In this document: piece after piece, positions 1 to 13,729 of the stretch | Layout of the letters: each line of letters opens with the position of its first letter | Numbering within the stretch: the stretch's first letter is position 1 | Source of the DNA: a virus | DNA length: 29,431 bases | Direction: 5' to 3' (one strand) | Virus record (IMG/VR): IMGVR_UViG_3300032006_000059 | Coordinates: 1-29,431 of that record | Notes under the pieces: model-generated | Seen by the model: the letters and a program-made list of their open reading frames with translations, nothing else | Databases searched by the model: none | Told to the model about the DNA's origin: nothing | Position numbers and translations under genes: made by a program

Positions 1-43
1 TAACGAAAGCCGAAATAGAAAGTACATTGATTATTTTTTGCAT
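1..43 (-). CDS. Start of a small protein, cut by the left edge
   Basis: An ATG at 43 opens a frame that stays open to the window edge and encodes MQKIINVLSISAFV, which looks like the start of a hydrophobic N-terminal segment. It lies 44 bases after the stop of the large adhesin, on the same strand. From memory, cyanophages often carry a small protein beginning MQK(I/L)IN followed by a membrane segment and a Gly/Ala-rich tail. That resemblance and the position are the only support. No strong ribosome binding site is visible. Only 14 residues can be seen, so this is tentative. Confidence 0.45.
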   Translation of the reverse strand, partial: MQKIINVLSISAFV

Positions 44-2970: not shown

Positions 2971-3126
2971 TTAAAAATCAAAAGACTCTAATTGACGTTT
3001 TGGAACGTGTCGCTCAAGATATTTTTCAAAGAAATTGGTTATAGCTCTAGGTTCTATATCTTCTGTAAATTCCATCTTACGAGTTACACCATCGTCCCCA
3101 ATGTATTCAACAGTTGCGTTTGGCAT
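2971..3126 (-). CDS. Small fibre-linked protein, type A copy 2 (51 aa)
   Basis: This 51-aa protein starts MPNATVEYIGDDGVTRKMEF. I do not recognise a named family, but it aligns with the 53-aa protein at 7445-7606: VEY(I/T)xDxGVxxKxEFTE near the start and FxxxYxxxH further on. More loosely it matches the two type B proteins at 3173-3304 and 7288-7443. It lies between two giant adhesin genes on the same strand. The conserved positions across four copies, in the same kind of location, argue that it is real despite its size and the lack of a good Shine-Dalgarno. A role as fibre chaperone, connector or accessory is inference from context. Confidence 0.68.
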   Translation of the reverse strand: MPNATVEYIGDDGVTRKMEFTEDIEPRAITNFFEKYLERHVPKRQLESFDF

Positions 3127-3172
3127 GGCATCACACAATCACTAAATAATATTCTCCCATATATCAAACTAA

Positions 3173-3304
3173 CTATGAGGATAACTGTTTATAGTACTTT
3201 TCAATATACTTTTCATAAAATTCGTCAAGCTCCTTTTCTGTAGGATTTGTCAAATCAAGAGTATATTTATTATTACTTGAATCAGTGTATACAACTTGTG
3301 GCAT
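3173..3304 (-). CDS. Small fibre-linked protein, type B copy 2 (43 aa)
   Basis: This 43-aa protein starts MPQVVYTDSSNNKYTLDLTN and continues with a charged helix containing DEFYEKYIEKY. It is closely similar to the protein at 7288-7443 (YTDSNKNKYSLDLTN, then ADFYEKYIKQH), which supports both as real genes. The copy here lacks an insertion of about six residues after LTN and is shorter at the C-terminus. It follows the 950-aa adhesin after a 45-base AT-rich gap in which I see no clear promoter. The function is unknown. Pairing with an adhesin suggests a fibre assembly or regulatory accessory. Confidence 0.7.
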   Translation of the reverse strand: MPQVVYTDSSNNKYTLDLTNPTEKELDEFYEKYIEKYYKQLSS

Positions 3305-3349
3305 GGGTTTAAAAACTAATATACTGAATTATATAATTTTACTTTACTG

Positions 3350-6202
3350 TTATTTAAAAGCAATATAGTTATAACGATAACTGGAACTGGCATTTATACT
3401 ACTTGCATATGTAAAACCATCTGTATTAATTGTAAGAACATTCATATCAGTTTCTGAGCTTTGATACATTAAGTCTAAGAGCTTATCTTTTACTCTGTCT
3501 CCTAGATTTGTACTTGGCCACGTAGGTGTATTTACATTATCCCAGATAATTCTTATTCCTCCTCTTCCTCCTTCACTACCATTGTAGTTATTATTTGAAA
3601 TCTTTACACCGCTGGCTCCTCCTCCTCCTTGGGTTCCACCGTTATAGACTCCATTATTTGTTCCACCACTTCCTGGCTCTCCTTCTTGTGGATACGTAGT
3701 ACTTCCAGATGTAACAAAGCCTCCTCCTGCACCACTAGATCCTTCTCCATACATACCTACACCACCTCCTGCACGTCCATTTGTATAACCTGAAGCACCC
3801 CCGTTTCCAAAAGCACCTCCACCACCGCCGCCGCCTGAACCAGCAGAACCATTTCCACTTGTGCCTCCAGCACCACCAGCACCGCTATAACCTCCAGCAC
3901 CTCCTGCTCCTCCACCTCTTTTGGATGAACCCCAACCAGTTTCTCCTGCTCCACCAGCTCCTCCACTTCCACCACCATCTCCTGTATAAGTTCCTCCAGC
4001 AGTAGAGCCAGCTCCTCCACCGCCACCGCCTTTTACAATGATGGTTCCACCTGCATCTTTAAAATAAGTATCTCCTCCAGACGTTCCACTTGCACCCGCA
4101 GGTCCTCCAGCCCCTACTCGATATGCATAGCTAGTGCCTGGAACCACTGTGATGTTATTCTTCCAACCTAATCCACCACCTCCTGGACCGTTTCTAGACG
4201 ATCCTGATGATCCTCCTCCACCAATACAAAGTACTGAAATAGAGGTAACACCTGCAGGAGCTGTCCATGTTTCTTCTGCAGGTGAATAAGTATCCGTTTC
4301 TTCTCCTATTGCGCTTCCTGGTGGAGGAAGTACTCCCCTTACTGTGTCTATAACAGGAGCAGAAAACGGATAAGTTCCACCGCCAAGACCCATTACACAA
4401 CGAGGCTGAAATCCACAATCCTGTGCAACAGCGGCGTTTCCATTGCCATCATAATTAGCTGATCCTACCTTTACCAGTCCTTCAATGTCTTGGAATAAAA
4501 TAGCGGTATAAAGTTTTCCAGATGTATTAGTTTTTGCAGATGTACCTACAGTAAATACTGTTGAAGTTGGTAATGTATCATTAAACGTAGTCGTACTATC
4601 TTCATACCAACCCCAAGTAATTGAGTAATATCTATGAGCTGCATTTTTACTAGCGGCAGTATTAATATTTCCAAAATGATAGCCAATATCTCGACAATTA
4701 TTTTCACCAGCATCTCTTGGCCTAATGATGATTGCTTTTGGAACTGAACCTAGAGAATGAGCGATATTTTGATTTGATCCCGTTCCAACGTATTGAACAA
4801 TATCGCAATGCCTACCTAGTTTTGTTGCCCAACCAAAGAAATCAGAATTTGAATTATTTTTATATGCACCAGTGGAATGATCCCATGTGAAATTAGCTTG
4901 CGTAGTCTCGTCGTCATCATTAGTAAAAGTAACGATTTTTGTTCCATTCATTCTTGTTCCTATCTCCCAATGGCCATAAGTATCTTTTCTTCTAGCAAAA
5001 ACTAAATCAGGTCTAAAGCCTGTTGATATACTTGGTCCAAGAGTTGCACTTGTACTTGCCGCACCTAAACTGAAAATTTGAGTACCAGCAGTTGGTAACT
5101 TGGAGACGTATCCGTCAGGTTTTCTAATTGCCATGTAGATATAGTCATTTCCACTTGTATTCCAAAAGCTATTTGCAGTCACTACTTGAAACCCTGTTGC
5201 ACTTAAATCAAAAGCGTCGTAACCAGCATCTTCTACAGAATTAGCATCAGGCATAATGTAAGGATCATTTTGACCGCCATTGAAAATTCCTCGTGTAGTA
5301 TCATGCATCCCCCAGTTATTACCACCATCTTTATTCTTAAATAAAATAAATTGCGGTTCCCAACCTAAATTAACTACAGGTCCAGTAGCATTCCCATTTC
5401 CTGTCCATGATCCACATTTTATTATGCTTTGGTCTACGTCATCTCCAAATCCCGTAGCACCGTTAGCAAAAATATAAGCAACATAATTAGTTCCATTAGC
5501 GTTTGTATTTGCATTAGCACCGACTCTAAAAGTTGTGGCAGTAGGAGTCGTACTATCCCAAATAGTTGCGTTACTTGTATAAAAAGCAGCATTACTATTA
5601 AGAGCACCTGCAGCTTGATTACCTGCCGAAACGTGGTAAACAACCCAATCTGCAGCACTGGTTGCTTTTAGTAGGATCAACCCTGGAACACTACCCAAAG
5701 AATGAGTTATGTTTCTCGCAGTATTGTTTCCGGTGTAAGTAACAATATCAAAGAATCCTTTCTGCTTACGAAATGTCCATGAGCAAAAAGTATGATCAGA
5801 ATCACCATTAAGAGCATCAGTACCCCAAGTACCTGCAGTTAAATTAAAGCCAGTAGAGTTAAAGGCACTGAAAACATTATTACCCCCTTCACCATTGTTT
5901 AAATTGGAATATAGTGGTTTTGTTGCACCTCTTTCAGTGTCATATAACTGATGAGAATTGGCATAATTTCTATTCTTAGTCCAAACTAAACCTCCCTCTC
6001 CAGAGATATCGATTCCATTATTTATTGTTATTGCTGCGGGACTTACATCATAATTACCAAACCATGTATCTGTTGCAAAAACTTCATCTACGTAAACAGG
6101 AACAATTGGTATTGGAGGTGTAAGTAATAAAGATGCAGGACCACCACTTAAACCTGTCATGCCTTGTACAGGTGCTTGTTTTATGGGGTTAATATCAGAC
6201 AT
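3350..6202 (-). CDS. Large tail-fibre/adhesin with nested glycine-rich module
   Basis: This 950-aa protein is probably a receptor-binding tail fibre. Residues 1-26 form a leader of pattern NPxKxAPxxxMxGLxGGxxSLL, shared with the fibre at 7613-8545. A module beginning near residue 55 contains GIDISGEGGLVWTKNR and LYDTERGA, typical of marine phage adhesins. Repeats of the kind FDIVTYTGN...ITHSLGSVPG follow at about 150, 260, 375, 466 and 577. Residues of about 638-898 are a glycine-rich module bounded by ETWTAPAGVTSISV and GGIRIIW. After it, LLDLMYQSSETD...YRYNYIAFK reads like the missing end of the repeat that began at 577. The gene sits between the halogenase-like gene and a small type B gene. 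Confidence 0.82.
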   Translation of the reverse strand: MSDINPIKQAPVQGMTGLSGGPASLLLTPPIPIVPVYVDEVFATDTWFGNYDVSPAAITINNGIDISGEGGLVWTKNRNYANSHQLYDTERGATKPLYSNLNNGEGGNNVFSAFNSTGFNLTAGTWGTDALNGDSDHTFCSWTFRKQKGFFDIVTYTGNNTARNITHSLGSVPGLILLKATSAADWVVYHVSAGNQAAGALNSNAAFYTSNATIWDSTTPTATTFRVGANANTNANGTNYVAYIFANGATGFGDDVDQSIIKCGSWTGNGNATGPVVNLGWEPQFILFKNKDGGNNWGMHDTTRGIFNGGQNDPYIMPDANSVEDAGYDAFDLSATGFQVVTANSFWNTSGNDYIYMAIRKPDGYVSKLPTAGTQIFSLGAASTSATLGPSISTGFRPDLVFARRKDTYGHWEIGTRMNGTKIVTFTNDDDETTQANFTWDHSTGAYKNNSNSDFFGWATKLGRHCDIVQYVGTGSNQNIAHSLGSVPKAIIIRPRDAGENNCRDIGYHFGNINTAASKNAAHRYYSITWGWYEDSTTTFNDTLPTSTVFTVGTSAKTNTSGKLYTAILFQDIEGLVKVGSANYDGNGNAAVAQDCGFQPRCVMGLGGGTYPFSAPVIDTVRGVLPPPGSAIGEETDTYSPAEETWTAPAGVTSISVLCIGGGGSSGSSRNGPGGGGLGWKNNITVVPGTSYAYRVGAGGPAGASGTSGGDTYFKDAGGTIIVKGGGGGGAGSTAGGTYTGDGGGSGGAGGAGETGWGSSKRGGGAGGAGGYSGAGGAGGTSGNGSAGSGGGGGGGAFGNGGASGYTNGRAGGGVGMYGEGSSGAGGGFVTSGSTTYPQEGEPGSGGTNNGVYNGGTQGGGGASGVKISNNNYNGSEGGRGGIRIIWDNVNTPTWPSTNLGDRVKDKLLDLMYQSSETDMNVLTINTDGFTYASSINASSSYRYNYIAFK
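3509..4291 (-). repeat. Glycine-rich low-complexity module inside the 950-aa adhesin
   Basis: The coding strand is a long purine-rich run of GGN codons (seen as CCT/CCA/ACC runs on the + strand) covering residues of about 638-898. A related module occupies 7646-8407 in the neighbouring fibre. Such Gly-rich sequence probably packs as polyglycine-type helices in phage adhesins; that fold is inferred from known Gly-rich adhesins and is not shown by the sequence itself. Confidence 0.7.
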
Positions 6203-6239
6203 ATAAACGTCTTGTTTTTCTCTAGTTTAATCTTACTGT

Positions 6240-7310
6240 TTATTTAATATCGTAAGTATTATCCTTCCATATTCTAAAAGATTTTTCCTGCCATTGACCA
6301 TACACCTCATCACCTGTAGGTGCTTTGATTTCAGTAAACGGTATAGTTTCGACGTAAGACCAAAAAGGACTATTAAATTTAGAACCTGTTTTGTAATGCC
6401 ATAAAATAAAATTTTTAATGGTATCAACTTCCTTATGTATTAAATTCAAACATGTAGGAATATTTTTTTTATTAATAAAACGATCATAACCAACCCTCGC
6501 AATATATAAATATAAACCTGTAGCAGTTGCTTCAAGAGGCTCAATAAACGCACATGCATTCCCGTTAACTAAAGTTCTTTCGCCAACAAATGGATTAATT
6601 AAACAATAATTGTCAAATTTCATATTATGTTCAATGTCTCCTACACCAAAACGTTCTTGAAAATCTGTTATTGCATTTTCTTTTGAAGTTAATTCTGAAT
6701 TATATAAATAGCCAAGACTCGATTTATCCTCAGTCGGTACTACAAACGTCCAACCATTAGGAGTAGCTACTGCTTCAGTCCACTTTAATTCTTTTTTTGG
6801 TAAGCTTGCAAGTAGAACTGAATTAATAGGATTAACAAGAGGATCGATACTATTTTTATCTATAACTTTTTTACCTCTACAATCAATAATGAAATCAGCA
6901 TCAATTTCTTTTTCTGGATCTTTTATCTCTTGTTCTATAATATTAAACTTCCGACTAGATAAAACAGCATCACTTAATTTTTTAGGGGTGTAGTGAATAG
7001 ATACATTACCCATTGAACAAAAATCATGGAAAATTTGATCTTTCTTTTTCCCCCAATTCTTATATAAAATACCTGTTTTTAATGTAGCTCCAATTTTATT
7101 ATCAAACCAATTAGAATCTAAAGCAAGTGATAACAATTCTGCAACAGGAATCGTAGTACCTTGTCCTACTAACTCAATTGGATGGTTCTCAGAATCATGA
7201 TATAAATCGATTTCTAAATCTGGTTGATAATAATTAAAATGTAAAGCTGTTATACAACCAGCATTACCAGCTCCTATTACTGCAAGTTTATTCCGACGCT
7301 GCTGGGTCAT
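6240..7310 (-). CDS. Compact flavin-dependent tryptophan-halogenase-like protein
   Basis: This 356-aa protein has the layout of a flavin-dependent halogenase. A Rossmann motif, IGAGNAGCITAL, lies at 12-23. The segment VGQGTTIP...TLKTGILYKNW contains K78, which aligns with the catalytic lysine of tryptophan halogenases. GNACAFIEPLEATATG at 250-265 aligns with the region of the conserved glutamate and halide site. The signature WxWxIP appears as GWTFVVP at 186-192, so the second Trp is Phe. At 356 aa it is much shorter than the roughly 500-540 aa of bacterial tryptophan halogenases. It overlaps the upstream small gene by 23 bases and precedes a giant adhesin. The substrate is unknown, and activity as a true halogenase is not certain. 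Confidence 0.75.
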   Translation of the reverse strand: MTQQRRNKLAVIGAGNAGCITALHFNYYQPDLEIDLYHDSENHPIELVGQGTTIPVAELLSLALDSNWFDNKIGATLKTGILYKNWGKKKDQIFHDFCSMGNVSIHYTPKKLSDAVLSSRKFNIIEQEIKDPEKEIDADFIIDCRGKKVIDKNSIDPLVNPINSVLLASLPKKELKWTEAVATPNGWTFVVPTEDKSSLGYLYNSELTSKENAITDFQERFGVGDIEHNMKFDNYCLINPFVGERTLVNGNACAFIEPLEATATGLYLYIARVGYDRFINKKNIPTCLNLIHKEVDTIKNFILWHYKTGSKFNSPFWSYVETIPFTEIKAPTGDEVYGQWQEKSFRIWKDNTYDIK

Positions 7311-7443
7311 GCTGTTTTATATACTTTTCATAAAAATCAGCAATCTCTTGTTCCGTTGGTCTTAGGAACTTACCAATACCTCGATTCGTTAAATCAAGAG
7401 AATACTTATTCTTATTGCTATCAGTATATATAATTTTTGGCAT
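7288..7443 (-). CDS. Small fibre-linked protein, type B copy 1 (51 aa)
   Basis: This 51-aa protein starts MPKIIYTDSNKNKYSLDLTN and has a C-terminal acidic/aromatic helix containing EIADFYEKYIKQH. I chose the ATG at 7443 rather than the in-frame ATG at 7506 for three reasons: the N-terminus then aligns with the paralogue at 3173-3304, a GAGG lies 5 bases upstream, and the longer form would run through the whole 3' end of the neighbouring small gene. It starts one base after that gene's TAG and its own 3' end overlaps the halogenase-like gene by 23 bases, suggesting translational coupling. The function is unknown. Confidence 0.75.
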   Translation of the reverse strand: MPKIIYTDSNKNKYSLDLTNRGIGKFLRPTEQEIADFYEKYIKQHDPAASE

Positions 7444-7444
7444 T

Positions 7445-7606
7445 CTATCCTCTCTTCCAACCTTTAACTTTAGGTACCCAAGGATCATGCTTCCTAATGT
7501 AGTCATAATAAAAATCTATAAACTCTCCACGTGTCATAGATTCGGTAAATTCTAATTTAGTTTTAACACCTTTTTCATCAGTGTATTCAACAAAAGGAGT
7601 GCTCAT
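7445..7606 (-). CDS. Small fibre-linked protein, type A copy 1 (53 aa)
   Basis: This 53-aa protein starts MSTPFVEYTDEKGVKTKLEF and ends in a basic, Trp-containing tail (W43 and W50 in DPWVPKVKGWKRG). It aligns with the 51-aa protein at 2971-3126 and more loosely with both type B proteins, sharing an N-terminal V(E)YTDxxGxK strand pair and a C-terminal helix of pattern F(Y)xxYIxxH. It begins six bases after the stop of the Gly-rich fibre and ends one base before the next small gene, so it is probably co-transcribed with them. No clear Shine-Dalgarno is visible. The function is unknown. Confidence 0.72.
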   Translation of the reverse strand: MSTPFVEYTDEKGVKTKLEFTESMTRGEFIDFYYDYIRKHDPWVPKVKGWKRG

Positions 7607-7612
7607 AATCGT

Positions 7613-8545
7613 TTACTCGTCTGCTGTACGTGTGCTTGGGTACTGTCTTTCGTGACCTGGGTAAATTATTCTAATACCACCACCTCCTCCCTTAGTATGA
7701 TTATATCCTCCTCCATATCCTCCACCACCTCCACCATAATTACCTCCGTCTCCTGGTGTATCAGGAGAGCTTGTTCCTGTTGCGCCGTCAGAACCTCCTG
7801 AACCTCCACCTCCACCTCCTGCTGGATTTGAACCACCGGCTCCATTAGAACCTTGACCTAAGAGACCTACACCTCCACCTCCACCTGCATAGTCACCGGT
7901 TGCACCCCATATACTTTCACCTCCACCAGCTCCTCCACCTCCTCCTGCACCTGCATTACCTGCTGAAATAACAACACCTGTACCACCATCACCAGAATAA
8001 CCGGCGGCACCGCCTCCTCCAGCCATGCTATAAGCTCCTCCCCATCCAGTTTGATAACTTACACCACTTCCACCTTTTTGCCCATTTCTTGATGAGCCTG
8101 GATTACCTGTAAAATGTCCAGCCGTAGCAGTACCGTGATGTGCGCTTGGACCGTTCACTGTCCAAGCAGCTTGGCCACCTGAAGCAGGTCCTGATAATGT
8201 TGATTGTCCACTTGTAGACGATCCACCACCGGCAAACGCAGCTGCATATGTGGTATACGTTAACGTCGCACCAGGAGTTACTGGAATATCATTGGCATAC
8301 GCTAAACCAGCAGCAGCACAAGCACCCATAGCTTGTGCTCCATCACCTCTTCCTACAGCAACAACACTTATTGAGTAGACATTAGCAGGAACCGTCCAAG
8401 TAGCGTTGGTATTATTACCATCAAAAACAACTTGGCCAACTGCATAAACTCTAGGAGTATGATTAAATAAAAGACTATTAGCTCCCCCTCCTAACCCTTC
8501 CATCGCTGCCATAGGAGCTTCTTTCTTAGGATTAAGTTCAAACAT
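7613..8545 (-). CDS. Glycine-rich tail-fibre/adhesin protein (310 aa)
   Basis: Residues 1-26 carry the leader NPxKxAPxxxMxGLxGGxxSLL, gap-free with the 950-aa adhesin. Residues of about 47-62 read NATWTVPANVYSISVV and open a glycine-rich domain that continues to about 290. It closes with GGGGIRIIYPGHERQYPSTR. The same opening and closing motifs bracket the Gly-rich module in the 950-aa adhesin. Phage glycine-rich tip proteins commonly bind host surface receptors, so this is probably a distal fibre or tip adhesin. It starts six bases after the stop of the preceding fibre gene and is followed by two small genes and the halogenase-like gene. Confidence 0.78.
   Translation of the reverse strand: MFELNPKKEAPMAAMEGLGGGANSLLFNHTPRVYAVGQVVFDGNNTNATWTVPANVYSISVVAVGRGDGAQAMGACAAAGLAYANDIPVTPGATLTYTTYAAAFAGGGSSTSGQSTLSGPASGGQAAWTVNGPSAHHGTATAGHFTGNPGSSRNGQKGGSGVSYQTGWGGAYSMAGGGGAAGYSGDGGTGVVISAGNAGAGGGGGAGGGESIWGATGDYAGGGGGVGLLGQGSNGAGGSNPAGGGGGGSGGSDGATGTSSPDTPGDGGNYGGGGGGYGGGYNHTKGGGGGIRIIYPGHERQYPSTRTADE
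7646..8407 (-). repeat. Glycine-rich module, second copy
   Basis: This is the Gly-rich coding stretch of the 310-aa fibre, a homologue of the module at 3509-4291. It has the same boundary motifs, TWT(V/A)PAxVxSISV at the start and GGIRII with a following PST at the end. It is strongly strand-biased, with a purine-rich coding strand. Confidence 0.65.
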
Positions 8546-8551
8546 CTATCT

Positions 8552-9964
8552 TTATGAAGATGTTTTGACTAAATTACCTATAATTGTAAATGTTGCGTCA
8601 GCAGTTTTAACAATAGTGTAACTATAAATGTCTTTACCACTACTTCCTCCAGCACTTGGAGCACTTCCTCCTACCCAATTCTCTGTTACTGCGGCACCAT
8701 CTATTGTTAATTGAGCACTGTAACCACCTGCTGCTGCAGTAGTGATAACAGTTATAGCAATCATGTCACCTACATTAACTTTACTATTTAATGTCGTACT
8801 TCCATTCCAACGTAAATTTGGAGTACATGTTGTAGTTTCTTGTGTGGTGAACAAGAAGACGTTACCATTCTCTACATTCAAGTTGGTATTATCCGATAAC
8901 TTACCAGCAGTAACAGTACACGCTTCAGAGAGAAGACCAGTGAAATCTGCATAACCTGAGCATGATAATCCAGTCGCTGTTACTAATCCAGTCGCTGTTA
9001 CTGCACCAACAGACAAACCGCCCGTTATCGTAGCGCCAGTCGCAGTAGTCGCTAGTTTAACGGCATTTGCGTGTGAAATGCTAACCGCACCAGCAGAAAC
9101 AATACTAATAGCTTCATTACTAGGATCACTAAATATTCTTATATTCCCAGTATTATTAAGAATATAAGAGTTAGTCCCGTCGTGATAAAGCTTAAAATCC
9201 TGCCCAGTTCCTAATTCAATTTTTTCACTATCGGTTAGTCCTATAGAACCAGTAATATCAATATTTCCTGCAACTGAAAAGCCCGTATTTGTAGTTTCGG
9301 CCCGCTTAGTTCCGTTGTAATGAAGTTCAACTTGACCAGTTGGAATGGCATGGATCATGTCATTGCCGCCATCTTTAGCTTCTATTTTTAAATTACCATC
9401 TGTTTGAATATAAAGATCACCAGTATTATTGTTTATGATGCTGTTGGTCCCATCATGATAGATTTTTAGGTCACTCGATGCACCAAGTTGTATCTTTTTA
9501 CTATCGACAAAATTTAAACCATTACCATCATAGTTTAAAATCTGACTACCGTTAGCGCTAAAACCAACAGAACCAGAACCTTCACGGAACCAACCTGTAT
9601 CATTATCATTAGCAAATGTAAAACTAGGAGCTGCAATAGTTCCATCAGGGAACTCTCCTCCAGCGTTAGCGTAATCGGCTCCTGCTAAAATAATACCAAA
9701 AAAGGCATGACCATTAGTTGGTGCAGAACTAAATACAATATTGTCTCCTGTAATTGTAAAACCTGCGCTACCAGTTGGATCTGGTTCTTGGACGACACCG
9801 TTAACAGAAATCAAAACCTGCTGTGGAGATGCAGGCATGGGAGTTGGTTTAACACCTCCTACTAACAATGCAAAAGAAGTAGCACTTCCATTAAACCCAG
9901 AACTTATATCATCAATAATCAGATAACCAGGAACAGCTGTCTGCAGATCGTACCCAATATACAT
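8552..9964 (-). CDS. Tail fibre protein with DLKIYHDGTNS repeats (470 aa)
   Basis: The N-terminal domain (about 10-95) contains PQQVLISVNGVVQEP and GFTITGDNIVFSSAPTNGH, a fibre-head module common in cyanophage tail fibres. A shaft follows with two copies of KIxLGxxxDxKxYHDGTNSxIxNNTG, at about 157-182 and 249-273. The C-terminal domain (about 385-470) has VGDMIAITV...AQLTIDGAAVTENWVGG, resembling the terminal domains of other cyanophage fibres. It lies within the fibre cluster, between the tail-assembly-chaperone-like gene and the Gly-rich fibre. Tail-fibre identity is confident; its attachment point on the particle is not known. Confidence 0.82.
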   Translation of the reverse strand: MYIGYDLQTAVPGYLIIDDISSGFNGSATSFALLVGGVKPTPMPASPQQVLISVNGVVQEPDPTGSAGFTITGDNIVFSSAPTNGHAFFGIILAGADYANAGGEFPDGTIAAPSFTFANDNDTGWFREGSGSVGFSANGSQILNYDGNGLNFVDSKKIQLGASSDLKIYHDGTNSIINNNTGDLYIQTDGNLKIEAKDGGNDMIHAIPTGQVELHYNGTKRAETTNTGFSVAGNIDITGSIGLTDSEKIELGTGQDFKLYHDGTNSYILNNTGNIRIFSDPSNEAISIVSAGAVSISHANAVKLATTATGATITGGLSVGAVTATGLVTATGLSCSGYADFTGLLSEACTVTAGKLSDNTNLNVENGNVFLFTTQETTTCTPNLRWNGSTTLNSKVNVGDMIAITVITTAAAGGYSAQLTIDGAAVTENWVGGSAPSAGGSSGKDIYSYTIVKTADATFTIIGNLVKTSS

Positions 9965-10016: not shown

Positions 10017-10331
10017 TTACGTCGTATGTGGGCCTTTTGTAGATGGAGCTGTAGGCCAAACAACCTTATCAAATCCATCTACTCTAAATGTTTGAGGAAT
10101 ATCTCTTAACGATTGTCTATATGCAGCCCAAGCTGACTGGTCAACAGTGCAACCTGGAGTCATCGTCCAATCTGATGTACGTAATAAGAAATCACGCTTA
10201 CGTCTGATAATAGACCAACTTGAATCCTCTAACGCAAGAATAGTCTTATCAAACTGTTTATCAATCTCATCTTTAATTCCAGTAAATTGAGATTGAATTT
10301 CACTAAGTTGTCCAACAACAGTTAATGGCAT
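10017..10331 (-). CDS. Tail assembly chaperone-like protein (Phage_tail_APC type)
   Basis: This 104-aa protein has an N-terminal coiled-coil-like helix (about 6-40). It is followed by FLLRTSDWT, a DQSAWAAYRQSLRDIP block and a short C-terminal tail with VVWPTAP. The pattern 'LLxxSDWTxxP...WxxYRQxLRDIP' is that of the phage tail assembly chaperone family PF16778, found near tail and fibre genes where it is thought to help fibre or tail assembly. It lies directly upstream of the 470-aa fibre and four bases after the stop of the preceding gene, which fits a fibre-assembly role. Confidence 0.72.
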   Translation of the reverse strand: MPLTVVGQLSEIQSQFTGIKDEIDKQFDKTILALEDSSWSIIRRKRDFLLRTSDWTMTPGCTVDQSAWAAYRQSLRDIPQTFRVDGFDKVVWPTAPSTKGPHTT

Positions 10332-13483: not shown

Positions 13484-13729
13484 TTGGAACCAGAAGTCAT
13501 TGCTGCTGTTATTTCAGGAAGCGTAGGGGCTTTTTTAGGCTTAACACGAGCATTAAGTAACTTTAATAGAAAATTAGATAAAAGATTTGACTCTTTAGAA
13601 CGTGATATTGACAATTTAAACAATAAAGTTGTCTGTGATTACGTTTTGAAAGAAGATTTCTTACGAGAAATGCAAGCAGTACACACTAAATTAGATAGAA
13701 TCTTAGATCATCTACTAAGTCACCATTAA
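13484..13729 (+). CDS. Membrane-anchored coiled-coil protein on the opposite strand (81 aa)
   Basis: The start is TTG, supported by AAAAGG seven bases upstream and by the protein it gives. Residues of about 4-24 (VIAAVISGSVGAFLGLTRAL) form one membrane segment. Residues 25-80 form a charged helix with heptad character (FDSLERDIDNLNNKV, then LDRILDHLLSHH). Single-membrane-segment coiled-coil proteins beginning ME-P-x-VIAA are, from memory, recurrent in marine cyanophages. This might be a holin, spanin-like or membrane-associated factor; the function is not established. It is the only gene on this strand and converges on the 141-aa gene, their stop codons overlapping in TTAA. Confidence 0.75.
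   Translation: MEPEVIAAVISGSVGAFLGLTRALSNFNRKLDKRFDSLERDIDNLNNKVVCDYVLKEDFLREMQAVHTKLDRILDHLLSHH

Follow-up and report, generated by a model that had tools for sequence, protein, structure and literature searches.

Accessory genes beside phage fibres are already known. The glycine-rich fibre of a cyanophage can depend on a chaperone of its own, as described for Pam3 in the part of that report considered here (PMC9608196). In three annotated phages, the gene following a DUF7483 fibre encodes a protein of the family PF16778 (Phage_tail_APC). Among viral flavin-dependent halogenases (FDHs), the characterisation of VirX1 from cyanophage Syn10 used non-natural substrates, and no natural product is given for it in the table of the review (PMC8407142). 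Phage halogenases are counted among auxiliary metabolic genes in the part of the source used (PMC10452541). The literature on phage and cyanophage halogenases and tail fibres, covered at the level of titles and abstract openings, yielded no tail-linked halogenase.

The DNA analysed here, referred to as the window, is an IMG/VR virus record of 29,431 bases. Its terminase shares 66% identity with the counterpart in Synechococcus phage S-EIV1, so the virus is most likely a cyanophage. Its tail module lies on the minus strand in the order fibre, adhesin 1, A1, B1, halogenase, fibre 2, B2, A2, fibre 3. The first-pass annotation had proposed the four short open reading frames (ORFs) A1, B1, B2 and A2 as one family interleaved with the fibres; all four are present on the minus strand, and the stated succession of fibre, A, B, halogenase, fibre, B, A and fibre holds. 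The upstream fibre of 470 aa (8552-9964), which has relatives in four other loci (L112-L115), is followed by adhesin 1 (7613-8545), a glycine-rich tail-tip protein of 310 aa matching phrog_4474 (E 3.5e-36). A1 (53 aa, 7445-7606) starts 6 nt past adhesin 1 and has A-type counterparts in L181, L187, L192, L194 and G032. B1 (51 aa, 7288-7443), which stands between A1 and the halogenase, runs 23 nt into the start of the halogenase gene, and a comparable overlap is found in L111, L183, L196 and L197. The FDH itself (356 aa, 6240-7310) matches PF04820 (E 6.8e-31) and phrog_2928 and is related to VirX1 and PrnA. Fibre 2 (950 aa, 3350-6202) combines DUF7483 with a phrog_4474 glycine-rich domain at residues 642-902; it is followed by B2 (43 aa, 3173-3304) and by A2 (51 aa, 2971-3126), the latter placed before fibre 3 (943 aa, 88-2919), a DUF7483 protein (PF24299, E 2.3e-51). 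The module closes with a small gene truncated at the end of the window, whose start (1-43, minus strand) reads MQKIINVL, identical to that of L172 8372-8593.

Upstream of the fibres, the same strand carries a PF16778 tail assembly chaperone of 104 aa (10017-10331, E 5.9e-15), separate from the small family; ORFs resembling it occupy the same place in L172, L175 and L176. These three also have counterparts of an 81 aa ORF (window 13484-13729) on the strand opposite to the structural operon. Adhesins and DUF7483 fibres have in common an N-terminal leader like MPIQQMLLGAGG, which may be the attachment peptide; it was seen at 7613-8545 and 3350-6202 of the window and in the adhesins of L111, L120, L181, L187 and L192. 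A syntenic record (G011) has a fibre and a DUF7483 fibre, then the MQKIINVL gene, with neither a small-family gene nor a halogenase, from which we take the tail module of the window to be an expanded form.

As judged from sequence comparison, the small family is real and conserved as protein. Leave-one-out profiles over five members, including the L111 copy, recovered each member at 24.5-67.9 bits against a best score of 11.0 from 2,000 shuffles per member; the lowest score belongs to A2, the most divergent member (E 9e-7). With a profile built from B-type proteins only, the four took the top ranks of all ORFs in the window (E 1.6e-30, 3.4e-30, 4.9e-8 and 9.6e-4), the next one standing at 0.3. 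The motif layout proposed for all four members was stricter than the sequences allow: the family holds, but A2 reads Y-I-G instead of Y-T-D near the N-terminus, and at the C-terminal motif A1 has FYYDYI, A2 has FFEKYL and B2 is without the histidine. Between A1 and A2, identity is only 29%. The suggested hairpin followed by a helix agrees with AlphaFold2 models of moderate confidence, which are beta-beta-alpha (pLDDT 72.3 and 78.0, pTM 0.36 and 0.45). Members measure 42-53 aa, and an 80 aa ORF in G032 (L265 8501-8743), located just before the halogenase, consists of two fused units. The annotated phage records examined include a gene of 30 aa, which gives no support to the remark that three of the four ORFs are shorter than most gene callers report. 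Across the family, Y6 is invariant and Y30 nearly so, and tryptophan is missing in eight of the ten members counted. The frames are conserved as proteins in related phages: dN/dS was 0.02-0.05 with predominantly third-position changes in three close B-type pairs (34 codons), to which this reading is limited by the saturation of distant pairs.

The small family is undescribed in the libraries and papers that we searched. There was no explanatory match in Pfam, PHROGs, NCBIfam, PADLOC or among PDB sequences, and no explanatory fold for the models in BFVD or PDB fold searches; the best VIA-align row was a designed hairpin-helix mini protein (Z 3.4, rmsd 4.3, 37 aligned). Several candidate families were rejected. 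PF16778 gave no Pfam match in the four window members or in 12 aligned members, and a shrunken version of this chaperone was discarded on the same lack of match and on the tail fibre assembly gene standing alongside in G032. XkdW (PF09636) of PBSX-like phages is likewise a small tail-region protein of unknown role, and its gene lies beside tail fibres; one of the 12 members, B2, matched it over the helix below the cut-off (E 0.023, 14.9 against 24.6 bits). The Lsr2 dimerisation domain (PF11774, phrog_1223) reached 11.7 bits against a cut-off of 29.6 in one of 12 members. The weak matches to the two Lsr2 profiles covered the second strand and the helix in one member each (E 0.0094 and 0.21), the fold was absent among the Foldseek and VIA matches listed for the moderate-confidence models, and the gene context of Lsr2 is unlike that of the small family.

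Scans for close relatives, using B1 or a five-row alignment, led to one further record only. A hairpin-based pattern applied to viral contigs found 18 stretches, nine with a family member (L156, which is the L111 record G001, and L181, L183, L187, L192, L193, L194, L196 and L197) and nine without. L192 and L194 encode the same small protein, leaving eight distinct new records plus the window. Of the ten records with the family, nine are distinct, G031 and G033 being near-identical; G032 is the whole record of L193. The hairpin pattern gave 67 loci in 84,980 bacterial and archaeal genomes with no member among them (best E 0.11), an A-type pattern scan gave three loci and no member, and tblastn against 50,697 phage records with four queries (B1, A1, the A type of L181 and the B type of L196) retrieved nothing convincing. 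A 12-row alignment matched nine of 21 records, every one a cassette record as described below, and one of 14 in a second set, a weak match in G027 that was rejected because it sits in a 4,143 aa frame. Weak profile matches in L161 and L162 were also dismissed, as the helix motif alone fits and the adhesin context is absent.

In all ten records, window included, a glycine-rich adhesin is followed by the small protein and then by the FDH. This is a new adhesin-halogenase cassette with the small protein in its middle. The adhesin and the small gene are 2-29 nt apart, and the small gene overlaps the halogenase by 4-26 nt in seven of the nine cassettes measured; in G032, 67 nt separate them. The adhesin matched phrog_4474 in each of the nine cassettes tested, a count leaving out the G029 adhesin. 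It ends in YPST or YPTT before 5/5 A-type and 1/4 B-type copies, numbers too few to weigh. In L196 (3399-4269), the cassette adhesin is made of two overlapping frames, which may be a sequencing error or a real break. The cassette is spread over unrelated phages: the S-EIV1-like window, G032 with structural proteins 27-48% identical to those of the window where they match, T7-like records with an internal virion protein or T7-type fibres (L111, L192), and a record with a tape measure protein (G028), whose downstream genes are shared by L196. Among isolated phages, no case was detected. Homologues directly following a fibre or adhesin thus occur in other phages, and the suggested accessory that accompanies fibre cassettes is supported, although the link to the halogenase had been missed.

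The cassette halogenase of the nine further records is 72-78% identical to that of the window. In a control, this halogenase was present in eight of the 18 hairpin-pattern loci, all of them members (the ninth member, L193, counts as lacking one since the piece examined stops before its halogenase), and in none of the nine non-members. Among 42 loci of another pattern, the only one with a halogenase was the member L156. GxGxxG and FX[DE]PX[EFL] are FDH motifs, and WxWxIP or its variants are missing in a number of FDHs, according to the sections of the review used (PMC8407142). The window enzyme and eight further aligned cassette enzymes carry GAGNAG, the tunnel motif is present as FIEPLE, WxWxIP is replaced by the variant GWTFVVP, and the active-site lysine is conserved, with ATLKTGILYKNW aligning to GGYKLGIRFENW of PDB 2wes. 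From these motifs, the cassette halogenase is probably active.

Without the cassette halogenase, the small family was absent, in a contrast set that is small and includes many fragmentary records. It was found neither in the two records with a phrog_4474 adhesin and no cassette halogenase (G003, W03) nor beside DUF7483-type fibres in G008, G011 and six annotated phage records (W04-W09), which speaks against a general accessory of DUF7483 fibres and adhesins. A tie to any halogenase locus was rejected as well, since eight records with halogenases of about 40% identity, and W02, are without the family; at the seven loci with halogenases of about 36-40% identity for which neighbours were listed, no adhesin stands beside the enzyme. 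The place after the adhesin is thus variable, with the small family as one occupant: G003 has a 106 aa gene there, the Marine virus AG-345-E15 (L120 6708-7583) has a sulfotransferase, another possible modifying enzyme, after its glycine-rich adhesin, and G008 has a 154 aa gene next after its DUF7483 fibre.

A second site for the small protein lies at fibre 2. Behind this fibre, the window and G032 each have an additional copy; the fibre is 62% identical between the two over 727 aa and has phrog_4474 as its C-terminal part. The G032 copy (L193/L265 2288-2416) is similar to B2, and both end in IEKYY plus a short tail, whereas most copies beside the halogenase end in HDP or HEP. B2 and A2 are positioned away from the halogenase. 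The gene for a tail fibre assembly protein (phrog_4912, E 9.5e-18) separates fibre 2 from the small gene in G032.

Within an exchangeable tail-tip cassette, the small proteins occupy the middle, and the pattern is best fitted by a protein touching both adhesin and halogenase. We favour, with a probability of roughly 40%, an adhesin-bound accessory that would act with the halogenase during tail-tip maturation. Its binding partner would be the glycine-rich adhesin just after synthesis, or the adhesin domain within fibre 2; most likely it would hold or present that partner, allowing the enzyme to halogenate aromatic residues that are exposed. A1/B1 would belong to adhesin 1 and B2/A2 to fibre 2, giving every glycine-rich fibre copies of its own, with one halogenase serving both. 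The more specific proposal, in which the small protein recruits the enzyme to the glycine-rich adhesin and the phage thereby halogenates its receptor-binding tip at aromatic residues, is rather doubtful. Distances between small proteins correlated with those of the halogenases in Mantel tests restricted to eight or nine cassettes (for n=9, r 0.56 and p 0.01; for n=8, r 0.44-0.48 and p 0.03-0.05); the relation to the adhesins, whose distances are poor owing to low complexity, was less clear (r 0.08-0.41). The A/B type of the small protein switches while cassette halogenases stay 71-91% identical: G032 is of A type, yet its halogenase shares 82-85% identity with the enzymes of four B-type cassettes. 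An adhesin-specific partner would fit this switch as well. Also counting against the favoured reading are the distance of B2 and A2 from the halogenase, the more distant cyanomyovirus-type halogenases that have no such partner, and the discovery of the nine further records via the small protein itself.

An adhesin chaperone indeed fits the pattern almost as well and is a close rival, possible if still somewhat doubtful: the small protein could be a chaperone devoted to folding glycine-rich adhesins, matching Pam3 gp25 or Tfa in function at a much smaller size and merely accompanying a separately functioning halogenase. At both sites its gene comes immediately after a glycine-rich fibre, as the PF16778 chaperone gene follows the DUF7483 fibre in annotated phages. 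However, the phrog_4912 assembly protein and the small protein stand side by side in G032, phrog_4474 adhesins manage without the small protein in both records that have no halogenase, and sequence and fold links to chaperones are absent. That the small protein is instead a subunit for activity or stability of the halogenase, or its peptide substrate, would suit the co-occurrence in 10/10 records, the overlapping frames and the conserved Y6 and Y30. We consider this unlikely, with the extra copies adjoining fibre 2 rather than the enzyme and tryptophan missing in most members counted; moreover, cyanomyovirus-type halogenases (about 40% identical) occur without such a partner, implying that the enzyme fold does not need it. 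The position in a late structural operon, adjoining tail-tip genes, would also agree with a cap or clamp remaining on the virion tail tip, but adhesins of other phages go without the small protein, and we regard this role as improbable. The short gap to the adhesin and the overlap with the halogenase could even reflect an ORF for translational coupling whose peptide is irrelevant, which is very improbable given the low dN/dS in the three close pairs, with its third-position changes, and the conservation of the small protein at the second site, where no halogenase overlap exists.

With the adhesin-bound accessory as the preferred reading, the cassette suggests that these phages modify or mature their tail tips chemically in a way not seen before. 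If the enzyme acts on the adhesin, the adhesin would be chemically altered and would be a native substrate of a viral halogenase, directly testable by mass spectrometry, and halogen chemistry would join the determinants of phage host range. Host-recognition genes of marine phages under-recruit in metaviromes, as stated in the part of the source used (PMC3909814), which is in keeping with an exchangeable tail tip.

Compared with the libraries and papers searched, the novelty lies in a tiny conserved protein fixed between adhesin and halogenase in unrelated phages. The PF16778 proteins resemble the small family in gene position, but they share no sequence match with it, and the window has its own separate PF16778 gene. 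VirX1 is, like the related cassette enzyme (E 4e-13), a viral FDH, although it is longer, with 531 aa against 356 aa, as far as the review sections used describe it (PMC8407142). The gp24-gp25 pair of Pam3 is similar in joining a cyanophage glycine-rich adhesin to a dedicated accessory, as reported in the part of the study considered (PMC9608196). The architecture of Tfa and Pam3 gp25, a beta-sandwich with a helical trimerisation domain of about 160 aa (162 aa in gp25), was rejected for the small proteins, which have 42-53 aa and a predicted beta-beta-alpha fold; similarity to gp25 is undetectable, and it is only in the small-family cassette that a halogenase forms part of the unit.
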